23,104 nucleotides of DNA from a virus: positions 1-23,104 of IMG/VR virus record IMGVR_UViG_3300022700_000019. One strand, written 5' to 3'. This document shows, in pieces, positions 852 to 16,485 of the stretch. Made by a program: the position numbers and the translations under genes. Each line of letters opens with the position of its first letter. Position 1 is the stretch's first letter. The notes beneath the pieces are model-generated. The model did no database searches, had not been told where the DNA came from, and was given only the letters and a program-made list of their open reading frames with translations.

Positions 852-1856
852 TTAACTTGATGCCGTCATGTCAAGCAGATAACCGCATGCCTTGCTGATC
901 TCACTCTTTGCGGAACCATCCTCATCATAGGAGGTGAGGAACGACTCACTGGAATCATGCCGGACCCTGAGAACGTCGCCGCGGACTTTATCGTCACGGT
1001 ACTGCTCAACAATCGGCATGCTGCCGTTCTGCCCCTCGTTCCAGAGGAACGTGCGGCCGATAGACGGGTCTGTAATGTCGGCGGCCTCGGATGACGTTCT
1101 GCACAGCATGGCATACGTGCTACCCCAGATTGCCGACAGGCTTGCATCCTGACCCTTTTTGGCGCTGTTGTATATCGCCCCGGCAACCAGGATTTTATCC
1201 AGGTCAAACACGGTCCGCAGGTGCTCAACGGTCACCCTCCCGGTTTTGGCGGCGTCGGGGAAAAGCTGATACACCTGTTCTTTCAGGTCATCGTTCTGCC
1301 GCAACCACTTGTACCCTACCCACGGGATAATCAGAGTGTTGGGCTCAATGCCGTTGTCACGCAGAGAATCTTTCCCCTCGTCGATGTCATAGACAGGATC
1401 GGCTGACGCCGTGGTTGACCATGCAGTGGTGGCGTTGGTGGCCGAAAAATTGGACACGTTGAACAGCTTACCGGCAACCCGGTTTTCATGCGCCCGGAGA
1501 ATCTTGTCTATCAGCATCATGGCGATAGTGGTTTCATATGCAAATTTGCTCGAATAGATCGCGGAAAGGCGGTCGTCAATCGGATATTCAAGGCCGTTGT
1601 CGTTGGTCGTGTAGAAGCCTTCCTCGAACGCTTCCGCAACACGGTTGTATCCGCCCATTGCGCTGCGTTTAACGTCATGGATGTTATACAGCGCCTCTTT
1701 CGGCATGACCGGATATGTTGATGTATATTCGGCCACCGGGAAAATAGGCATAACTTGCAGCCCGATAAATCCCATCGTGGGTGCCGCCCTCATGCCCTCA
1801 TATACAGCCTGCCCCAGGTCAGGGCGGCTTAACGTGGTATCATTTGTCGGTCTCAT
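852..1856 (-). CDS. Major capsid protein
   Basis: A 334-aa protein, close to the 341 aa of lambda gpE, placed directly after the decoration protein as in the lambda D-E order. It has no membrane segment and no Cys-rich motif. The N-terminal part (PTMGFIGLQVMPIFPVAEYTS) and the middle region with NTLIIPWVGYKWL and ILVAGAIYN resemble HK97-fold capsid proteins of this type, where a strand-rich core follows a long helical region. The start has a GGAGTGAACATATT site upstream. It should self-assemble into the icosahedral head around the nested scaffold. The capsid call rests on size, position and sequence style; the fold is inferred. Confidence 0.85.
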   Translation of the reverse strand: MRPTNDTTLSRPDLGQAVYEGMRAAPTMGFIGLQVMPIFPVAEYTSTYPVMPKEALYNIHDVKRSAMGGYNRVAEAFEEGFYTTNDNGLEYPIDDRLSAIYSSKFAYETTIAMMLIDKILRAHENRVAGKLFNVSNFSATNATTAWSTTASADPVYDIDEGKDSLRDNGIEPNTLIIPWVGYKWLRQNDDLKEQVYQLFPDAAKTGRVTVEHLRTVFDLDKILVAGAIYNSAKKGQDASLSAIWGSTYAMLCRTSSEAADITDPSIGRTFLWNEGQNGSMPIVEQYRDDKVRGDVLRVRHDSSESFLTSYDEDGSAKSEISKACGYLLDMTASS

Positions 1857-1880
1857 AATATGTTCACTCCTTTTCGATTT

Positions 1881-2885
1881 TTATGATGTCAGAATCTGAC
1901 GGGTGTATTCCAGCCAGAGGCCCACAACAATCACGTCGTCAGTGCCGAGCGTGCCGTCAGTGGGCTGCAAGGTAAGAGAAATCACTCCGGGAGCGCCGGA
2001 CACGTCAGACGCTGAGATGGTAGCGGTCTCCTCCTGCAAGGTTTTTGCGGTGGCATCACCGGTCATGGCGGTAGTTGTGTCTCCTGCGTCTGCGTCTGCG
2101 TCATAAAGCGCCCCGTCGGTCAGGAAAAAAGCGCCCACGTCAAACGTGGTGGCGTCGCCCACAGTCGCGCCGGTCTTGGCTGCCAGCACATGCACAACCA
2201 CATCTTCGCTCGAATCCAGATCGGGCGGAATCACAACATTCGTAATGATCGGGTCGGGGTTGGCGTGGTTGTTCCAGCGTATGCCGATGGCCTCGCTTCC
2301 GAGCGTGTCGATGCCGGGAGTTGTAGATGCGCCGTCGGAGAAGGCGGCCAGTACAGTGCCGTCAACCTCGGTGGCTCCGAGCAGGTTCACGGGCGCGATG
2401 GCCTGAGCGGATGCAATGTGCTGATAAATCTCCTGCAAAGCCGCCTCAACGGTGGCCGTGCTGGTAAACCCGCCTGAATCCGTGATTGATACGTTACCGG
2501 CAGTTGTCGCCACACCAGGATGCAGTACGGCTTCGATGATGTCGCCCTGTGCCGTCGCAGCCACAAGTGCCTTGAAATACGCCGTGCCGGAGCTGGTATC
2601 TGCCACGCGGCCATCATCCGCGCCGTACAGGTCTGATCCGGCGGAAAGTGCCTCGTCTGCCTCGACCAGGAACGAACCGTCTTTTGCAATGGGCTGCACG
2701 GCAATCGGATCGCCGGACTCTGCATTGTCCAGAGTAACCCCGATGAAATCCTCCCCGGCATCCGCATAGGACACGGTGACCGGTGAGGTAGTATAGTCAG
2801 ACCCTTTCACCCGCCGGTAGGCTGCAAGTTCCTCGCCCGCCGTGAATGTTAAAGGGCCGTCAGTGTATTTTGCTTGTGTCGTCAT
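1881..2885 (-). CDS. Capsid decoration protein (DUF2190/gpD-like) with C-terminal extension
   Basis: Residues 1-125 look like the phage capsid-cement family (DUF2190): a start of the type TDGPLTFTAGEELAAYRRVK, then AVQPIAKDGSFLVEADEALSAG and TAYFKALVAATAQGDIIEAVLHPG. The remaining ~210 residues form a Thr/Asp/Ala-rich, beta-patterned extension not found in lambda gpD (110 aa). This looks like a displayed domain on the capsid surface. A GGAGG site lies 8 bases before the ATG. The gene sits between protease/scaffold and capsid, as in lambda. The first domain call is good; the function of the extension is unknown. Confidence 0.75.
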   Translation of the reverse strand: MTTQAKYTDGPLTFTAGEELAAYRRVKGSDYTTSPVTVSYADAGEDFIGVTLDNAESGDPIAVQPIAKDGSFLVEADEALSAGSDLYGADDGRVADTSSGTAYFKALVAATAQGDIIEAVLHPGVATTAGNVSITDSGGFTSTATVEAALQEIYQHIASAQAIAPVNLLGATEVDGTVLAAFSDGASTTPGIDTLGSEAIGIRWNNHANPDPIITNVVIPPDLDSSEDVVVHVLAAKTGATVGDATTFDVGAFFLTDGALYDADADAGDTTTAMTGDATAKTLQEETATISASDVSGAPGVISLTLQPTDGTLGTDDVIVVGLWLEYTRQILTS

Positions 2886-2900
2886 GATGTCATCCTCCGT

Positions 2901-3401
2901 TTATGATTTCTGCTGCTTTTTCAGCCATGCCTGATGAAGCTCCGGCCTCTGAGCAACGACGGCTTTCAGCGCGTCGGCCCGTGAGCAGTTGTGTTTTGTC
3001 TGATACTCGTCAACCAGCTTTTCAAAATCCTCGGCATTGTCTGCACTGCCGCCGTCAACGTCGTTTGCCGTGTCCGGTGCGGATGACTGAATGCCGTCCA
3101 GAATCTGCTGGCGCGTGTCTCCTGTGTCCTGGTCTCCATCGTCTCCGGCAGTCTGCTGACCAAAAAGGTCACGGCTGACCCTCACCTGCTCCGCTGTCAT
3201 ACCGGTTTCGATCACCTTGCTCAGCTTTTCCCTGGCATCCTCGCCAAGTACGGCTTCAACCAGCTCAACCGTCTGCGTCTGCCCGTCTTCTGCTCCGTCA
3301 GCACGTGCCTGGTCAACCTCCTGCCGAACCTCCGCCCGGCCTGATTCCATGACCTGCGCGTAAAGCTCGGCATGCTCTGTTTTCAGTGTCTGTAAGTCCA
3401 T
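2901..3401 (-). CDS. Nested scaffold protein (Nu3-like), internal start
   Basis: An in-frame internal ATG at 3401 gives a 166-aa product identical to the C-terminus of the protease. It is preceded by ACAGGAG with about 8 bases to the ATG, and the codons just before it encode an Asn-rich linker, as expected for an inter-domain start. The product begins MDLQTLKTEHAELYAQ and is acidic, charged and helical, like capsid scaffolds. In lambda, Nu3 is made in the same way from within C. It would guide capsid assembly and then be degraded by the protease. The internal ribosome site is seen; its use is inferred. Confidence 0.65.
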   Translation of the reverse strand: MDLQTLKTEHAELYAQVMESGRAEVRQEVDQARADGAEDGQTQTVELVEAVLGEDAREKLSKVIETGMTAEQVRVSRDLFGQQTAGDDGDQDTGDTRQQILDGIQSSAPDTANDVDGGSADNAEDFEKLVDEYQTKHNCSRADALKAVVAQRPELHQAWLKKQQKS

Positions 3402-4292
3402 AATATTGACTCCTGTGTTGTTGTTATTAATTTCCGCGATCAAGTCCTCCATGTTGCTGATCCGATCAGCCAGCCCGGCTTTAATCGCTTTGCTTGTAAT
3501 CACCATGTCGCCTTGAAGGTCGATCACCTGCTCTCTGGTCATCCCCCGGTTTGCCATGACCGTTTCAACGAACACCTCGGCAATGGCGTCGGCGCGGGCT
3601 TGATATGTCTGCCGCCCCTCGTCTGTTGCCGGGTCCGGTCGTTTTTTCGGTGACACGGATGATATGATTTCGATTGTATTGTCTGACCTGCGGCGCGTGG
3701 ACATCACCACGCCAATTGACCCGAACTCCGCCGTGTCCGCACCGACAATATCATCAGCCGCCGAAGCGATCCAGTAACCGGCGCTGGCGGCATAATCGCC
3801 GACATACGCGTAAACGGGCTTTTCAACTTTAGTCCGGATAAACCCGGCCAGCTCGGTAATCCCGCCCACCTGACCACCGGGTGAGTCGATCTGCAAGATA
3901 ATTGCGGTCACGTCCGGGTTTTCAGACGACGCTCTTATTTCCCGCATGATGCCCTCTGCCGAAGGGAAGCCAAATACCCATGACAGGATATTGTCATAAT
4001 GGAATATCGGGCCGATGATTTCGATAACGGCCACACCGTCACGAATCTGTGTGTATTCCGTTTTATCCGGGCGGGTGCCGTTTCTCGCCATAATCGCCTG
4101 CACCGCTCCGGCACCGGCGGCGGCATCCTCAACCTGAGTCAGCCCTGTTTCCGTAATGGCCCATGCGGAGTGGTTCAGTACCTGCGATAAATCATTGACG
4201 GCACCATTATCGGTCGTGGTGGTGGCACTATCGCCGCTTGCCCATGTGCCGCCGGTGTCATTAATCCGAACGTTGTTGTCAGTCCAGTCCAT
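2901..4292 (-). CDS. Head maturation protease (S49, lambda gpC-like) fused to scaffold
   Basis: A 463-aa protein, near lambda gpC at 439 aa. Residues ~85-225 carry the S49/SppA-type protease: IILQIDSPGGQVGG, then AASAGYWIASAAD with likely nucleophile Ser170, and SPKKRPDP holding the likely general-base Lys216 or Lys217; lambda gpC uses Ser166 and Lys218. Residues from ~298 on are charged, helical and scaffold-like. The ATG at 4292 follows AAGGGGGCGAGG and overlaps the portal gene by 14 bases; the longer open frame to 4415 only shadows the portal gene. It should form a transient internal protease that cuts scaffold and itself during head maturation. An internal start makes a separate scaffold. 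Confidence 0.9.
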   Translation of the reverse strand: MDWTDNNVRINDTGGTWASGDSATTTTDNGAVNDLSQVLNHSAWAITETGLTQVEDAAAGAGAVQAIMARNGTRPDKTEYTQIRDGVAVIEIIGPIFHYDNILSWVFGFPSAEGIMREIRASSENPDVTAIILQIDSPGGQVGGITELAGFIRTKVEKPVYAYVGDYAASAGYWIASAADDIVGADTAEFGSIGVVMSTRRRSDNTIEIISSVSPKKRPDPATDEGRQTYQARADAIAEVFVETVMANRGMTREQVIDLQGDMVITSKAIKAGLADRISNMEDLIAEINNNNTGVNIMDLQTLKTEHAELYAQVMESGRAEVRQEVDQARADGAEDGQTQTVELVEAVLGEDAREKLSKVIETGMTAEQVRVSRDLFGQQTAGDDGDQDTGDTRQQILDGIQSSAPDTANDVDGGSADNAEDFEKLVDEYQTKHNCSRADALKAVVAQRPELHQAWLKKQQKS

Positions 4293-5829: not shown

Positions 5830-6050
5830 CGCCTAACCCTCCCGCGAACGAAAACAGGCCCCTGGGTGCCGGAAAGGGCCTGCTTCTCTGACTCTAAAAA
5901 TCGTAATGTTTTGCGGATTTCGGGAAGGTCGGCATAGGTGAGTTTTCGGCCGGATGCGTCGGTAAACTCTCTACCTGCGGCAACGTCCTTTAACGCCGCC
6001 TTCCATGCGGTAATCTGTTCGTTAAGTTCTGTTACAGTCCATATACTCAT
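5826..6050 (-). CDS. Head-tail joining protein gpW-like
   Basis: A 74-aa protein with the gpW pattern: a helix (LNEQITAWKAALKDVAAG), a short beta hairpin (REFTDASGRKLTYAD) and a second helix (LPEIRKTLRFLESEKQAL). Lambda gpW is 68 aa and lies at the same place, between large terminase and portal. It caps the portal and lets the tail connector attach. No good ribosome site precedes the ATG; instead the ATG overlaps the stop of the upstream short ORF (ATGA), which suggests translational coupling. Its stop also overlaps the portal start. Confidence 0.8.
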   Translation of the reverse strand: MSIWTVTELNEQITAWKAALKDVAAGREFTDASGRKLTYADLPEIRKTLRFLESEKQALSGTQGPVFVRGRVRR

Positions 6051-6196
6051 GCAGCCATGAGATCATCAAAAGAAGCGGCTGTCTGTAACGCATGAAAAGG
6101 ATGATACAAAAGAAACAAATGATACAAAAGAAACAAATGAAACGGGATTTTCAGTATTGCTTCAAGTTTTTGTCGTTCATCACACCTCCGCCTCAT
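6047..6196 (-). CDS. Possible 49-aa ORF coupled to gpW
   Basis: This frame is open from 6283, but its first part overlaps the HTH gene. An ATG at 6196 gives 49 aa with a hydrophobic stretch built on an in-frame 18-bp duplication (HLFLLY twice) and an end of SFDDLMAA whose stop overlaps the gpW start. The upstream ribosome site is weak. A strong GGAGGTGTG site serves instead a 9-codon ORF (6180 to 6151, MNDKNLKQY) in another frame. The ORF may be real because gpW lacks its own ribosome site, or it may be an incidental frame in a 130-bp gap. Confidence 0.3.
   Translation of the reverse strand: MRRRCDERQKLEAILKIPFHLFLLYHLFLLYHPFHALQTAASFDDLMAA
6103..6138. repeat. Two perfect tandem copies of an 18-bp unit
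   Basis: On the plus strand the unit GATACAAAAGAAACAAAT occurs twice in direct succession. It lies in the only sizeable gap between the HTH gene and gpW, and its length keeps the minus-strand frame open (six codons per unit). Confidence 0.9.
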
Positions 6197-6368
6197 CCCG
6201 CTGCTGCCGGAACGATTCAACCGCCGCCTCCGTGATACGAATGCAGTGTGCCGTCCCAAGCCGTGACGCAGGCAAATGACCACTGTTGATAAGCCTGTAA
6301 ATGGTCGCCCGGCTCACGTTCAACCGTCTGGCCGCCTGACTGACATCAAGCAGTTTCCCTGTTGTCAT
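6180..6368 (-). CDS. Excisionase-like helix-turn-helix protein
   Basis: A 62-aa protein of the HTH_17/excisionase type: LLDVSQAARRLNVSRATIYRLI is the classic DNA-binding helix pair, followed by the wing residues NSGHLPASRLGTAHCIRITEAAV. Such small proteins act as recombination directionality factors or as DNA-binding adaptors. Here it lies between the large terminase and gpW, with no integrase in sight, so it could be a terminase accessory or late-gene regulator rather than an excisionase. The ATG overlaps the stop of the 39-aa gene (ATGA), with a GGGGGCGATC site. Family call is good; role is open. Confidence 0.85.
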   Translation of the reverse strand: MTTGKLLDVSQAARRLNVSRATIYRLINSGHLPASRLGTAHCIRITEAAVESFRQQRDEAEV

Positions 6369-6484
6369 GATCGCCCCCTGTCATGAAAATGATTAATCGT
6401 TAGCCGTATACCGATCAGCACAAGGAAAAACAGAATAACCGCGCCGAAAAACCACGGCACCCAAAAGAATACAAATTTAAACAT
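6365..6484 (-). CDS. 39-aa single-pass membrane protein
   Basis: A short ORF starting MFKFVFFWVPWFF, with one hydrophobic span (residues ~3-28) and a basic/His tail (RLTINHFHDRGRS). AGGAGGTAGGCT lies just before the ATG and contains the stop (TAG) of the large terminase gene. Its own stop overlaps the HTH start (ATGA). The tight packing and strong ribosome site make it a likely real gene. No family recognised; a membrane protein among packaging genes is unexpected. Confidence 0.7.
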   Translation of the reverse strand: MFKFVFFWVPWFFGAVILFFLVLIGIRLTINHFHDRGRS

Positions 6485-6487
6485 AGC

Positions 6488-8434
6488 CTACCTCCTGTTG
6501 AACCACGACGGCCTCCGCCGTGCGCTCGCGTTGTTTGTCCTGCCGGGTGCCTGTCTCTTTTCCGGTGCCCTGCCACCCGGCTTCCCGGTGCGTAACAGAT
6601 TCAGCCCGCCGCCCGGACACTCCGGGTCAACGAGCGCATGCGCGATAACCTCGGCATCAAAAAGATGATTTTCACCACGCACATGCACCCAACCCCCAAC
6701 TCCCTTTCTGTCAATCTGCTTCTCCTCGGCCATTATTTGCCTGACGTAATCATTGCCGGTTTCGCCATGCAGGTACGCCGCCTGCGGGTCGCCGTCGCCC
6801 GCAACAGCCTTTGACAGCCGGAAATGGTACGCATCTTTCATGTCATCCGTGTCGATGCTGATAATCTGCAACCCGCCCGGTATCGGCTTGCCTGACGGTG
6901 CCCGGTCCAGCGGTTTCCCCACACTCAACTTGCCGGCAAGCCTCGTATTTGACCCTTTCGTGCACCACACACGGCACCCGCGGCCCGTGCCGTTCTTCCG
7001 CACCCACCAATAAACCTCCTCCGTCATGGACATGGCATCATCAAATTTTGTGCCGCCGATATCGATGCCCGCACGCCATACCGGCAAAGACCGCTTCCCG
7101 GCCTGATCCGGATACGCCGTCTCGAACAACAATCGTTCAATGTCCTGCCATTCCGCCAGATGACCGTAATCAATAAGCCATGATGTGTAATCGGCCGCCC
7201 ACGCCCGGACTGCAAACCAAAAGCCGTATTTCTGATTGTCAATCCCGCATGTCAATACCACGGCATCCTCCGGGATAGTTTGCGGCGGCAGATCAACCCG
7301 TGCTTTCAGTATCTCCGCCTCGTTCGCCTCAACAACCACTTGTTTCCACGGCTCGGCCAGACTGGAATTGACAAACCCCTGTATCTGCTTGAGGTCGCCG
7401 CTTTTCACCGCGTCGATCCATTCGCTGACCAGATTCTCAAGACGACCGCCGGGAAACAGGGAATACAGGCGATTTGTGTGAAATCCGATTTTCCGGGCAT
7501 GCGTCGGTACCTCCGCTCTCGGCACCATTCGGCCCTGTTGCACGGCCTGATTTTTCTCCACTGTTGACCAGATCGCCTCACACTCCCCGCACTGATACCC
7601 GGCCGCCTCGATCTGTTCACGGGTCGCCTCCCGGCCGCCTTCCCATACGACCTGACCGACCTGATGCAAGGTGCCATCCTCTGCTCTGTACTGACCATCC
7701 ACGCAGCCAGACGCGTATTTCAGCGACCACCGCATCGGCTGCATCTGCCCGCATTCCGGGCAGGGCACGTGCCAGTCATAAATCACGTCACAGGACTTCA
7801 GCTCCCGCGTGATCCGTCCGGTGTCAAGCGTCGGTGTTGACAGTAGCGCAATCTTCCGGTTGGCGAACGTATTGGTTCGCTCTTTGGCCAGCCCGATGGC
7901 GTCGCCCTCGTTGGTTGTGACCTCGTATCCTTGCTTGTCGATCTCGTCACAACACACGATCCGGAACGGCCTCGATGCCAAGCGTGCCACAGAGGATGCC
8001 CACGCGAATGTCAGCCTTGCGCCATTGATAAATCCCAGCTCCCGCTTAGTCCACTGGTCCTTGTCCGGCAGGTGCTGAAGATCCGGAGATTCAAAAAACA
8101 TTGGCTGCACACGACGCCTGGACATCTCCTGTATGGCCGTGTCCTCATCTGCAAGCACAAGCATGATGCTGGACGGGTCTTGATCGATATAATACCCGAT
8201 AACATTCAGCATGGCATCCGTCCCTCCGATCTGCGCCGGTTTGCAAAAAACCACGGTCTCGACATCCGGGTCAGCGAACACGTCCATGATGGGCGGCAGC
8301 ACCGGCACCATGCCGGACTGATACGGGCCCCTGATTGCAGCGTTCGTCAATACCCGCTTCTGTTCCGACCATTGCGTCACCGTCAGCCGGTCTTTCGGGC
8401 GTGCTGTCATGATTTCATAATCGGACCAGATCAT
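6488..8434 (-). CDS. Terminase large subunit (GpA-like packaging ATPase/nuclease)
   Basis: A 648-aa protein, near lambda gpA at 641 aa. Residues ~63-73 hold the Walker-A-like CKPAQIGGTDAM, residues ~158-168 the Walker B RIVCCDEIDKQG. A C4 zinc-like pair (CPECGQ, then CGECEAIW) lies between ATPase and nuclease. The C-terminal nuclease carries CGIDNQKYGFWF, AGIDIGGTKFDD and FDAEVIAHALVDPE. It cuts concatemers and drives DNA into the head with the small subunit and portal. The ATG at 8434 follows GGCAGGA and overlaps the small-subunit stop (ATGA); the open frame continues to 8512 but overlaps that gene. Confidence 0.95.
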   Translation of the reverse strand: MIWSDYEIMTARPKDRLTVTQWSEQKRVLTNAAIRGPYQSGMVPVLPPIMDVFADPDVETVVFCKPAQIGGTDAMLNVIGYYIDQDPSSIMLVLADEDTAIQEMSRRRVQPMFFESPDLQHLPDKDQWTKRELGFINGARLTFAWASSVARLASRPFRIVCCDEIDKQGYEVTTNEGDAIGLAKERTNTFANRKIALLSTPTLDTGRITRELKSCDVIYDWHVPCPECGQMQPMRWSLKYASGCVDGQYRAEDGTLHQVGQVVWEGGREATREQIEAAGYQCGECEAIWSTVEKNQAVQQGRMVPRAEVPTHARKIGFHTNRLYSLFPGGRLENLVSEWIDAVKSGDLKQIQGFVNSSLAEPWKQVVVEANEAEILKARVDLPPQTIPEDAVVLTCGIDNQKYGFWFAVRAWAADYTSWLIDYGHLAEWQDIERLLFETAYPDQAGKRSLPVWRAGIDIGGTKFDDAMSMTEEVYWWVRKNGTGRGCRVWCTKGSNTRLAGKLSVGKPLDRAPSGKPIPGGLQIISIDTDDMKDAYHFRLSKAVAGDGDPQAAYLHGETGNDYVRQIMAEEKQIDRKGVGGWVHVRGENHLFDAEVIAHALVDPECPGGGLNLLRTGKPGGRAPEKRQAPGRTNNASARRRPSWFNRR

Positions 8435-13565: not shown

Positions 13566-14276
13566 TTATCCCGCGCAATACACCGGCAAGCCGGTTGTTT
13601 TTTGTATTTCAGCCTTGAACACATCCGGGTCTCCATTGCCGGTGCTGATGTGTATCAGATGTATTTCACGCGCCCGGCTCATGTCTTGCGCCCGGAAAAA
13701 CGCCTTGACGTTTTCCAGCTCAAAATGGCTTTTCACGATCCGGTTCCTTACGGCCGCCGGCGTCCTCCCGGACCTGATGTTCTCGTCAAGGATTTGCCGG
13801 GAATAATTGCACTCAATCATGTAATAACTCACGCCGCGAAAACGATATCGGCAATAAAAAGAGTCAGTAATGAACAACAGTTTTTCACCAGAAACCCTGC
13901 TTTTAATGAGAAACCCGACGGGCTCCGCTGCTTCGTGCTGTGTTGAAAACGGCAGAACATCGAATGTCTCTATCGCTACTTTTTTGAGCGGTTCTATCAA
14001 CTTTATGCGATGGCCGGAGACCCTCAATTCGTTGCGGGTGCCCTCGGTCATATAGCAGTCAACACCGGCTTTCATGATGTTTTTTACTGCTTTGGAGTGA
14101 TCGCCGTCTCAATGTTCATGAGAAATCAAACACGCATGATTCTCATGAACCGTAAAACCCCCTTTCTCCCTTATATTGCGGATGGGAATGCCGCACTCGA
14201 TCATGATCTTTGTTTTTGAATCGTCAATGATGTAGCAGTTGCCGGTTGAACCGGATGCTATGATTTTGATATTCAT
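13566..14276 (-). pseudogene. MBL-fold hydrolase (YycJ/WalJ-like) interrupted by in-frame TGA
   Basis: Read from ATG 14276 (ATGA overlap with the upstream gene), the frame gives 235 residues plus one internal stop. It starts MNIKIIASGSTGNCYIIDD and has IECGIPIRNI, typical of YycJ/WalJ-type metallo-beta-lactamase-fold proteins. Downstream are FSTQHEAAEPVGFLI, LLFITDSFY and YMIECNYS, the expected metal ligands. The first motif should read HxHxDH; here it is ISHEH, TGA (14111-14109), DGDHSKA. Six bases, TGAGAC, appear inserted between HEH and GDH, adding the stop without changing the frame. A downstream ATG at 14075 has no good ribosome site and lacks this motif. In phages this family often lies beside RecT and a Rad50-like ATPase and may act as the nuclease. 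The gene is broken unless read-through occurs. Confidence 0.75.
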
Positions 14277-14623
14277 CAGTGCCACCATAAAAATATTTCT
14301 GTGTCCGGTGGCAATACGGAAAGGTAAGCCGCAACCGCAGTATTCTTGCAGCTCAAGATATCGTGATCCATCATTACATCCGCCATGAGTTTTGCGCGTG
14401 TGCTTTTTATGGGCTCTCCGTAAGCATCGGTGGTTGTGTGCTCGATACCATCGTCAGAGTACCATAAGAGTTTTCTGCCCTCTCCTAACGGCACAAGCCC
14501 TGCTTTGTCCTTAAGACTATCGAATAGGCCATAACTCCTGTCCAGGCGCATTCGCTCATACGCAAGCGGCATTTCATCGTTAAACCCAAAGCAGCTGACA
14601 ATTATTGTTAAATCCACTCCCAT
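14276..14623 (-). CDS. Conserved-looking phage hypothetical, 115 aa
   Basis: Starts MGVDLTIIVSCFGFNDEM and continues LAYERMRLDRSYGLFDSLKD, a start pattern I associate with small phage proteins of unknown role. No Cys cluster or membrane span; ends LPPDTEIFLWWH. A good AAAGGAGGCAAGAC site precedes the ATG. Its stop overlaps the start of the MBL gene, so the two are probably translated together. Function unknown. Confidence 0.75.
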   Translation of the reverse strand: MGVDLTIIVSCFGFNDEMPLAYERMRLDRSYGLFDSLKDKAGLVPLGEGRKLLWYSDDGIEHTTTDAYGEPIKSTRAKLMADVMMDHDILSCKNTAVAAYLSVLPPDTEIFLWWH

Positions 14624-14693: not shown

Positions 14694-14903
14694 CTAAACG
14701 GATGGTTGGTTGTCGACAATCTCAACTTCAAATCCCCGTAATGCGAGTTTTTTATCGGCCGGATTTTCAATATTAACAATTTCCCGCGTCATCATTGCTC
14801 CAATGCCAGGATATCGCTTTTTAAAATCACGTTTCCATCGATATCTTTTGCCCCCGATAATCCCGATGTCATCCGATGTCATGTCCCATACATTTTTTTT
14901 CAT
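14694..14903 (-). CDS. Hypothetical protein in cassette-like unit, 69 aa
   Basis: Starts MKKNVWDMTSDDIGIIGGKRYRWKR when the ATG at 14903 is used; the ATG at 14909 is only two bases from GGAGG, so the second is better spaced (8 bases). A basic first half and a second half ending FEVEIVDNQPSV. No family recognised. It is the first gene after attC-like site C and its ribosome site directly abuts the R' box. Confidence 0.65.
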   Translation of the reverse strand: MKKNVWDMTSDDIGIIGGKRYRWKRDFKKRYPGIGAMMTREIVNIENPADKKLALRGFEVEIVDNQPSV

Positions 14904-14915
14904 GTTCATGCCCTC

Positions 14916-14972
14916 CGATAACGGTTGAAATAACCGGCACTGTTAAGCGTCCGGTTTAGTGGTTGGTTAGCC
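14916..14972 (-). other. attC: attC-like recombination site C
   Basis: Read in gene direction: R'' GGCTAAC (14972-14966), then an arm AACCGG-A-CGC, loop TTAACA, arm GTG-CCGGTT, spacer ATTTCAACC and R' GTTATCG (14922-14916). The extra unpaired A sits on the first arm, where integron attC sites carry an extrahelical base. The R'' box overlaps the stop of the preceding gene and GGAGG follows R' directly, as in compact gene cassettes. R' departs from GTTRRRY after GTTA. Confidence 0.65.
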
Positions 14973-15203
14973 GCTATTTTCGCTCAACTTATGATCTCCA
15001 CACCAGTCCAATTCAAACACGACCGGGAAACCGCTCATTGTTGGTGCATGACGGCGGCAGCGGCCCATTGATCCACGTTCAGCCTCTTGTTTACTGATAT
15101 CGCGCATCGGTTCGTCTTCGAGGCTTTCTCTTTTTTGCTTTTTCACAAACCATATACATGTTCTACATTTCATACCTTCGCTTCTATGTCTCCAATTGTC
15201 CAT
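14967..15203 (-). CDS. Cys-rich zinc-finger-like protein, 78 aa
   Basis: Contains MKCRTCIWFVKK, then GRCRRHAPTMSGFPVVFELDWCGDHK. The spacing C-x2-C ... C-R-x-x-A-P ... D-W-C-G matches a common small phage/metagenome protein type that likely binds one zinc ion. AAAGGAGTTTTAAA precedes the ATG. Located between attC-like sites B and C. Partner and function unknown. Confidence 0.78.
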   Translation of the reverse strand: MDNWRHRSEGMKCRTCIWFVKKQKRESLEDEPMRDISKQEAERGSMGRCRRHAPTMSGFPVVFELDWCGDHKLSENSG

Positions 15204-15233
15204 TTTAAAACTCCTTTCGTTGTTGGTTTATGC

Positions 15234-15252
15234 GGCTAACGGTTAGTTAGGC
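15234..15252 (-). other. Collapsed attC-like site B (core boxes only)
   Basis: In gene direction: GCCTAAC (15252-15246), TAACC, GTTAGCC (15240-15234). Both boxes fit the attC cores (RYYYAAC and nearly GTTRRRY), and TAACC matches the end of the L'-R' spacer in sites A and C (TAGCC, CAACC). The paired arms are missing, so this looks like an attC that lost its middle. The R'' box contains the stop of the 73-aa gene. Confidence 0.45.
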
Positions 15253-15468
15253 GGTGCGCTTTTTACCACAGGCATCACACACCACCCCTTCAAACTTGTT
15301 TGTTGTCGGTGGATATGGATATTTGCACCGGCAATAAGCATCCGCTTGAACGGCTGGTTGGGAAGCGTATCCCAATCGAGCCTCTAAATGATTGCAATAC
15401 GCCTCAAGATCATCAAAATATTTATCTCGCTGTGAGCTCGGGTAATCTAAAATATCTGGCCTTTTCAT
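15247..15468 (-). CDS. Small zinc-ribbon-like protein, 73 aa
   Basis: Starts MKRPDILDYPSSQRDKYFDDL. The second half has CRCKYPYP and later VCDACGKKRTA, giving two pairs of Cys for one zinc. The first half is helical (YFDDLEAYCNHLEARLGY). GGAGGCTTAA precedes the ATG and adjoins the R' box of attC-like site A. Function unknown. Confidence 0.72.
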   Translation of the reverse strand: MKRPDILDYPSSQRDKYFDDLEAYCNHLEARLGYASQPAVQADAYCRCKYPYPPTTNKFEGVVCDACGKKRTA

Positions 15469-15475
15469 TTAAGCC

Positions 15476-15538
15476 TCCTAACGGCTAAAATGAGCGGTGC
15501 GGTCGCCTACCCGCATCCGCTCGATTGGTTTGTTATGC
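15476..15538 (-). other. attC: attC-like recombination site A
   Basis: In gene direction: R'' GCATAAC (15538-15532), arm GAGCGG-A-TGCGG, loop GTAGGCGA, arm CCGCA-CCGCTC, spacer ATTTTAGCC, R' GTTAGGA (15482-15476). The arms pair along 11 bp with one extra A on the first arm, the arrangement of aadA-type integron attC sites (arm, extrahelical base, second half-arm, loop, return arms, TTATTTCA-like spacer, GTTAG). It starts 9 bases after the recT stop. Confidence 0.72.
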
Positions 15539-15546
15539 CCCGGCAA

Positions 15547-16485
15547 TCAGAAATCCGGCCCGTCTGTGCCTGTCGCCGCCTGCGCCTGCTCCTCGGCCTC
15601 GATGGCGGCTTTTTCCTCGTCCGTCATATCAGGATCATCGGGTGCGCTGCTATCGGTTTCCGGGCCGGTACCGGGCTCCGGCTTTATGTCGATATAGTCC
15701 TGATTGGCGTTTTCCTGTATTTCTGCCTCGGCGTCATGGTCCGCCTGGATATCGTCTGAATGCCGCACGGCTTTGATTAGCAGGTTTGAGTCACTGCTTG
15801 AATTGATGATCGGCTTGCACGCCCGGTTGATCACGGTCTTTTTTGCCATGTCAGCGGCGAACTTGTCATGCGTGGAGTCCTTCTTGATGCTTCCGTCTTT
15901 GTTAACAGGGTACATTTTTGACTGTTTCCACGCCTGCTTGATCTCATCGAACGTCATAATCTCGGTCTTTTTGACCTGCCCGTTCTTGTCCGTGATTATG
16001 CAGTATGCGGCCTTGATCTGCTTGCCAACGTTATCGATATCCTGTTCATGGTCCGTTATGGCCTTCCGGCCTTTGTCAATCTTGTACCGGAACGTATCGC
16101 CCTCATAAACGACCTCAGCCACTATGTCATTAATGGTCGAATCCACCATTTTTGCAACTGACATGCTGCCGAAATATGACCGCTGGCACACCAGCTGATT
16201 GCCGTACACGACAAAGTAGCACTGCTTTTTTGCCGGGTTCAGGGCCTGAACGACCATGTACAGCAGGGCGTTTGCGATGCTCTCTTTGGTGCAGACGTCC
16301 AGGGCGGGCGTGCTGTTCTTATCTTTCGTCTCCTGGATGATCAGCCATGCGGATTTCATGGCATTCTCGGCGCTGTAATTGTCTGGCAGATGAAGCTGGC
16401 CGGTCTCGTGAAACGACCGCACCCTCTGCGCCACAACGTCCACTGTGTCCTTTTTCATGATTGCTTTTGTGTTTTTCTCCGCCAT
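15547..16485 (-). CDS. recT: RecT-family single-strand annealing protein
   Basis: A 312-aa protein. Residues ~65-115 hold the RecT core: CTKESIANALLYMVVQALNP, then KKQCYFVVYGNQLVCQRSYFG and MSVAKM. A second conserved part, ITDKNGQVKKTEIMTFDEIKQAWKQS followed by HDKFAADMAKKTVINRACK, is the RecT/Erf-type nucleic-acid region. The C-terminal ~70 residues are acidic and disordered, as in many phage RecTs. It anneals complementary strands after resection during phage recombination. GGAGTCTTTATT precedes the ATG. It follows the Rad50-like ATPase, a known phage pairing; no RecE or lambda-exo nuclease is nearby. Confidence 0.95.
   Translation of the reverse strand: MAEKNTKAIMKKDTVDVVAQRVRSFHETGQLHLPDNYSAENAMKSAWLIIQETKDKNSTPALDVCTKESIANALLYMVVQALNPAKKQCYFVVYGNQLVCQRSYFGSMSVAKMVDSTINDIVAEVVYEGDTFRYKIDKGRKAITDHEQDIDNVGKQIKAAYCIITDKNGQVKKTEIMTFDEIKQAWKQSKMYPVNKDGSIKKDSTHDKFAADMAKKTVINRACKPIINSSSDSNLLIKAVRHSDDIQADHDAEAEIQENANQDYIDIKPEPGTGPETDSSAPDDPDMTDEEKAAIEAEEQAQAATGTDGPDF

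Follow-up and report, generated by a model that had tools for sequence, protein, structure and literature searches.

Three attC sites form an integrase-less cassette array between two core genes of a tailed-phage fragment

Results and Discussion

An attC-bearing insert between recT and a metallo-hydrolase gene

The window analysed here is the whole of a 23,104-base IMG/VR virus record, which encodes a major head protein, a head protease, a portal protein and both terminase subunits, together with RusA, a replication initiator, an SbcC-like protein and RecT. The record is a fragment of a tailed-phage genome. Following the recT stop codon (15547), its minus strand carries in order attC A, the small gene g1 with an overlapping attC B, g2, attC C, g3, orf115 and a metallo-hydrolase gene:

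15547 to 16485, minus strand: recT, a core gene and the upstream edge of the insert (phrog_148, E = 4e-67; PF03837, E = 1e-37)
15476 to 15538, minus strand: attC A, GCATAAC...GTTAGGA, with R' box GTTAGGA; predicted cut 15482/15481; covariance model score 52.0 bits, E = 1e-11
15247 to 15468, minus strand: g1, 73 aa, with a cysteine-rich C-terminus; gene of cassette 1 (predicted cassette 15481-15240, 242 bp, g1 plus attC B)
15234 to 15363, minus strand: attC B, a long-loop site of 130 nt, with R' box GTTAGCC; predicted cut 15240/15239; 24.9 bits, E = 1.8e-4
14967 to 15203, minus strand: g2, 78 aa; gene of cassette 2 (predicted cassette 15239-14922, 318 bp, g2 plus attC C)
14916 to 14972, minus strand: attC C, GGCTAAC...GTTATCG, with R' box GTTATCG; predicted cut 14922/14921; 43.7 bits, E = 1.7e-9
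14694 to 14909, minus strand: g3, 71 aa, on the 3' side of attC C, with no attC site beyond it by covariance model
14276 to 14623, minus strand: orf115, the last insert gene before the metallo-hydrolase gene
13566 to 14288, minus strand: metallo-hydrolase (MBL fold) gene, the downstream edge of the insert (phrog_392, E = 3e-46)

The three attC sites span 623 bases in a single orientation, and the cassettes are co-oriented with the phage operon. There is one attC site for each cassette gene, such that g1 with B and g2 with C make two complete cassettes. The stop codon of g2 (TAA) lies inside the R'' box of attC C, as is seen in cassettes, and a ribosome site follows closely behind R' for each gene. 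A preliminary description of this DNA had placed such ribosome sites next to R' and had put the small genes at 69-78 aa; the measured lengths are 73, 78 and 71 aa. The overlap of attC B with the 3' part of g1 is unusual for a cassette, since the gene runs through the site and leaves the R' box between g1 and g2.

Only g2 belongs to a recognizable family, a widespread small phage protein with the pattern CxxC...GRCRRHAP...DWCGDHK. Its relatives number 257 in viral contigs, genomes of bacteria and archaea contribute another 25 loci, and its AlphaFold model is uninformative (mean pLDDT 43). No relatives of g1 were found in viral or genome contigs, and g3 has none in viral contigs apart from weak, unconvincing matches in Gordonia phages. 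The downstream neighbor is an MBL gene, as had been described, except that its reading frame is interrupted: an in-frame TGA at 14109-14111 falls within the HxHxDH metal motif (HEH*DGDH, where the related locus L001 has HEHADH). The gene is therefore broken or recoded, or the TGA is an assembly error.

The three sites are genuine integron recombination sites

Sites A and C share the layout R'', eight bases, an extrahelical base, a 6-bp arm, an extra A, inner pairs, a loop, the returning arm, nine bases and GTTA. The R boxes (RYYYAAC-like R'' and GTTRRRY-like R') are represented at all three sites by AAC...GTTA. At A and C, five of the seven box positions pair, and the outer box letters are off consensus. 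Site B consists of R'' TCCCAAC, a bulged C, the arm AAGCGG, a bulged A, a long loop, the returning arm CCGCCT and R' GTTAGCC; it departs from the other two by one mismatch in the 6-bp arm and by spacers of 8/8. The middle R''/R' pair (GCCTAACTAACCGTTAGCC) was at first read as a collapsed attC site lacking a stem, a reading that was ruled out because the model assigns this R' to the 130-nt long-loop site.

We encoded the attC layout as a search grammar, in which AAC is followed by a spacer, a bulge, a 6-bp arm, a second bulge, a loop, the returning arm, another spacer and GTTR, and in which the spacers can be varied. With spacers of 8/9, this grammar occurs at just two places in the window, which are A and C; the plus-strand matches are their mirror images. 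Reference DNA came from the neighborhoods of integron-integrase genes, identified by TIGR02249 scores over cut-off, in bacterial genomes of two phyla. Left free there (6-10 and 7-11), the spacers took the exact values 8/9 in 24 of 33 clustered sites, and 32 of the 33 had A as the second bulge, or extra base.

From 21 attC sites adjoining integron-integrase genes we built our own covariance model, R1, in place of attc_4.cm. The grammar that selected these training sites came partly from the studied record itself and partly from the form of aadA-type sites, and the E-values are rough owing to a short calibration. Under R1 the scores of A, B and C (52.0, 24.9 and 43.7 bits) stand far above the next best match in the record, at 11.5 bits. 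Sites A and C also exceed the attC sites of Tetrasphaera phage TJE1, which receive 35.5, 33.5 and 32.4 bits. The covariance-model search that the preliminary description had proposed thus bears out both of its attC sites, at 15538-15476 and 14972-14916 on the minus strand, each with 8/9 spacing and the extra A. Its count of two was too low, given the third site at 15363-15234.

Palindromes arising by chance can be set aside with near certainty. Folding energies alone would leave room for them, because the z-scores are modest: -2.4 for attC A on the plus strand (-15.6 kcal/mol) and -1.2 for attC C, and at site B the attC stem does not appear in free folding. A strict form of the grammar speaks against chance far more strongly; besides the extra A, it demands a minimum of four R-box pairs and the presence of the conserved T-A pair. 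It was matched four times in total in 1500 dinucleotide shuffles, or 0.0027 sites per window, compared to the two observed, and it had no match in a comparison set of 771 kb, made up of 566 kb from related phage loci and 205 kb from prophage loci. In addition, the E-values of A and C are 1e-11 and 1.7e-9, and both sites are intergenic and on the same strand.

It is likewise highly improbable, if slightly less so than chance, that the hairpins are weak terminators or processing sites whose resemblance to attC is convergent. Their positions between co-directed genes, and the fact that stems can form, would suit such RNA elements. Terminators, however, need neither R boxes nor 8/9 spacing nor an extra A, all of which match attC here. 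Moreover, Rfam has no match in the region, the folding z-scores are modest, and by model the relatives have no such hairpins between genes. The covariance model, the geometry, the shuffle controls and the synteny described below together support the attC reading, with B as the weakest of the three sites.

The array is extra DNA relative to most relatives

We identified 13 related loci through RecT (44-61% identity), 12 of which extend past recT. The gene order sbcC-recT-MBL holds in all 12, and in 10 of them the recT stop codon overlaps the MBL start codon or sits no more than 37 bases away. Because 1,258 bases (1.26 kb) separate the same two genes in the window, the stretch with the three attC sites is extra DNA between two core genes. 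The preliminary description had held that related phages with the same genes and gaps would count against cassette exchange; the distant relatives found here are without the cassette genes. A near relative of the phage was found neither at the DNA level, where the record resembles no other phage, nor in the RecT-based comparison, and for this reason exchange at A, B and C themselves is not observed. Two of the relatives, L003 and L008, carry other genes at the recT-MBL junction. In L003, one of these (5911-6651) encodes a 246-aa protein with tandem repeats of the GVNGSYG/GVSWSNG type.

No integron integrase (TIGR02249) is encoded anywhere in the 23-kb record, as the preliminary description had noted for the DNA in view. 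Since the record is a fragment, this absence is weak evidence. An attI site was not recognized by eye in the recT-MBL interval. Thus, the array falls short of a complete integron, which comprises an intI gene and an attI site. In the DNA that separates recT from attC A, no G|TTR boundary marks a route of entry. We also examined whether the type of attC site points to a host, by sampling a phylum (that of G011) via genomes that bear g2 relatives. A single pattern match among the 395 genomes leads us to assign no host from attC type.

These observations can be read in two ways. We favor the view that the array is a CALIN, a set of attC sites that lacks an integrase, in a tailed phage, made mobile in trans by a host IntI that acts on the folded bottom strand, and we give this reading a probability of roughly 0.65. 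A somewhat unlikely alternative is that the phage took up part of a host's chromosomal integron on a single occasion, through illegitimate or homologous recombination, and that the attC sites, although real, are now idle. The record without IntI, the degenerate site B and the gene g3 with no attC site after it would all fit such a relic. So would the relatives, which have no attC site at this junction: the array may represent one event, and L003 and L008 acquired genes at this place without attC sites that the model supports. Against a relic, A and C retain every feature and score highly, and g2 is a phage-type gene rather than an obvious host cassette gene. A further argument against it, that cassettes do change at attC sites in other phages, comes from the comparisons that follow.

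Cassettes differ between near-identical phages

A pattern derived from sites A, B and C matched six viral contigs, five of which have model-supported attC sites. A pattern for one common stem added 27 contigs, all with attC sites, up to about a dozen each. None of the 33 attC-bearing virus records encodes an integron integrase (E<=1e-20), and several contain phage portal, head or replication genes. The g2 family recurs inside the attC arrays of two other contigs, L109 and L036.

One comparison involves L232 and G586 (L250/L251), which share 99.97% identity across a 6,265-base stretch with the portal and major head genes, and whose arrays differ. Specifically, one cassette of about 350 bp comes after an attC site (6720-6775) in one of the two; in the other it comes after a different boundary, CAATGG|TTA. 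A third phage, G581 (L248/L249), has a different terminase, portal and capsid, and shares cassettes and one flank with L232 and G586 at 98.5-100% identity. All junctions among the three that could be placed fall at G|TTR, and the boundary GCAAAATGGTTTGTTAATCAATGG|TTA in this comparison resembles an attI- or attG-type site. Both L232 and G586 have N6/N4 methyltransferase genes in their arrays, and one of the differing cassettes, in G581, carries an MT-A70-type methyltransferase (phrog_359).

Such differences are the trace that would be expected of integrase-type recombination on phage genomes. They suggest that host integron enzymes may swap genes between phages through attC sites. For the studied phage, the support that this case lends to the mechanism is one of analogy; it does not bear on that phage directly.

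A phage CALIN that host integrases may mobilize

We infer recombination by a host IntI in the studied phage. Under the favored reading of a CALIN mobile in trans, the phage would infect an integron-bearing host, whose IntI would bind the folded plus (bottom) strand of the phage attC sites and cut at G|TTR. Cassettes could then be excised, inserted or swapped among the phage, the host array and other phages.

The array belongs to the phage CALINs, a kind already known from Qi et al. (2023; PMC9892861), who presented such arrays with functional attC sites and reported phage CALINs as rare (17 in 10,705 genomes). Their examples include Tetrasphaera phage TJE1, two attC sites of which were recombined by IntI1 in an in vitro/in vivo assay, Pseudoalteromonas phage PH101/H101 and Polaribacter phage P12002L. 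The earlier remark that phages rarely carry cassette arrays consequently needs the qualifier that phage CALINs are on record. Like the known examples, whose TJE1 sites R1 also detects, the array described here lies in a tailed phage and has at least two attC sites, no integrase and small genes between the sites, where others have small or methyltransferase genes. It differs from them in its phage group and genes, in its position between recT and MBL, in the attC site that overlaps a gene, and in being known from sequence alone.

Sedentary chromosomal integrons share the R boxes, the 8/9 spacers, the 6-bp arm and the extra A with this array; in contrast, the array has no intI, no attI that we found and only three sites, and it resides in a phage genome. 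Loot et al. (2024, as cited in PMC11389934) deal with the insertion of cassettes at attG sites, which would, as far as that citation conveys it, offer IntI a possible route into DNA that lacks attI. We identified no attG core at the recT/MBL junction.

A broader proposal, to which we give even odds, is that uncultivated phages use integrase-less attC arrays as a standing exchange port, through which host IntI would swap small early genes, including those for DNA modification, between unrelated phages and host integrons. The studied array would be a port of this type, composed of phage genes.

What the locus documents is one phage CALIN between two core genes at a place where most relatives have no insert. 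Two short pattern scans revealed more than 30 further attC-bearing viral contigs. The cassette differences between near-identical phages, with junctions at the integrase core site, open cassette exchange by phages to direct testing, and methyltransferase genes belong to the cargo. Full-text searches of one open-licence library returned no later paper on phage CALINs than that of Qi et al. To our knowledge, the exchanged cassettes of near-identical phages go further than that work, as do the numerous arrays in IMG/VR.

Cargo and orientation in other viral arrays

Genes in or beside the viral arrays often relate to DNA modification and encode N6/N4, C5, Dam-like and MT-A70 methyltransferases, Mom and PAPS-reductase-like proteins. 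Array records with DNA-modification genes are L215, L216, L217, L218, L220, L232, L234, L242, L246, L109 and L036. Among them, L109/L207 (G553:C5) corresponds to contig JAJVIE010000007.1, a 42-kb phage-like sequence in a MAG labelled Omnitrophota, which has at least 11 attC sites in both orientations. The same contig also holds two near-identical cassette genes, a methyltransferase gene and a g2 relative.

Contig L036 contains five weak, clustered attC-like sites on one strand (1265-3585; 20-24 bits), in which the second bulge is TA instead of A. Among the small genes that these sites flank are a relative of g2 and a Dam-like gene, and the sites perhaps represent an attC subtype.

The direction of the genes relative to their attC sites also varies among arrays. 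In L207 (G553:C5), L220, L232, L242 and L246, clear genes for methyltransferases and PAPS-reductase-like proteins oppose the attC direction, unlike canonical cassettes, whereas genes and attC sites run in the same direction in the studied record, L217, L218 and TJE1.
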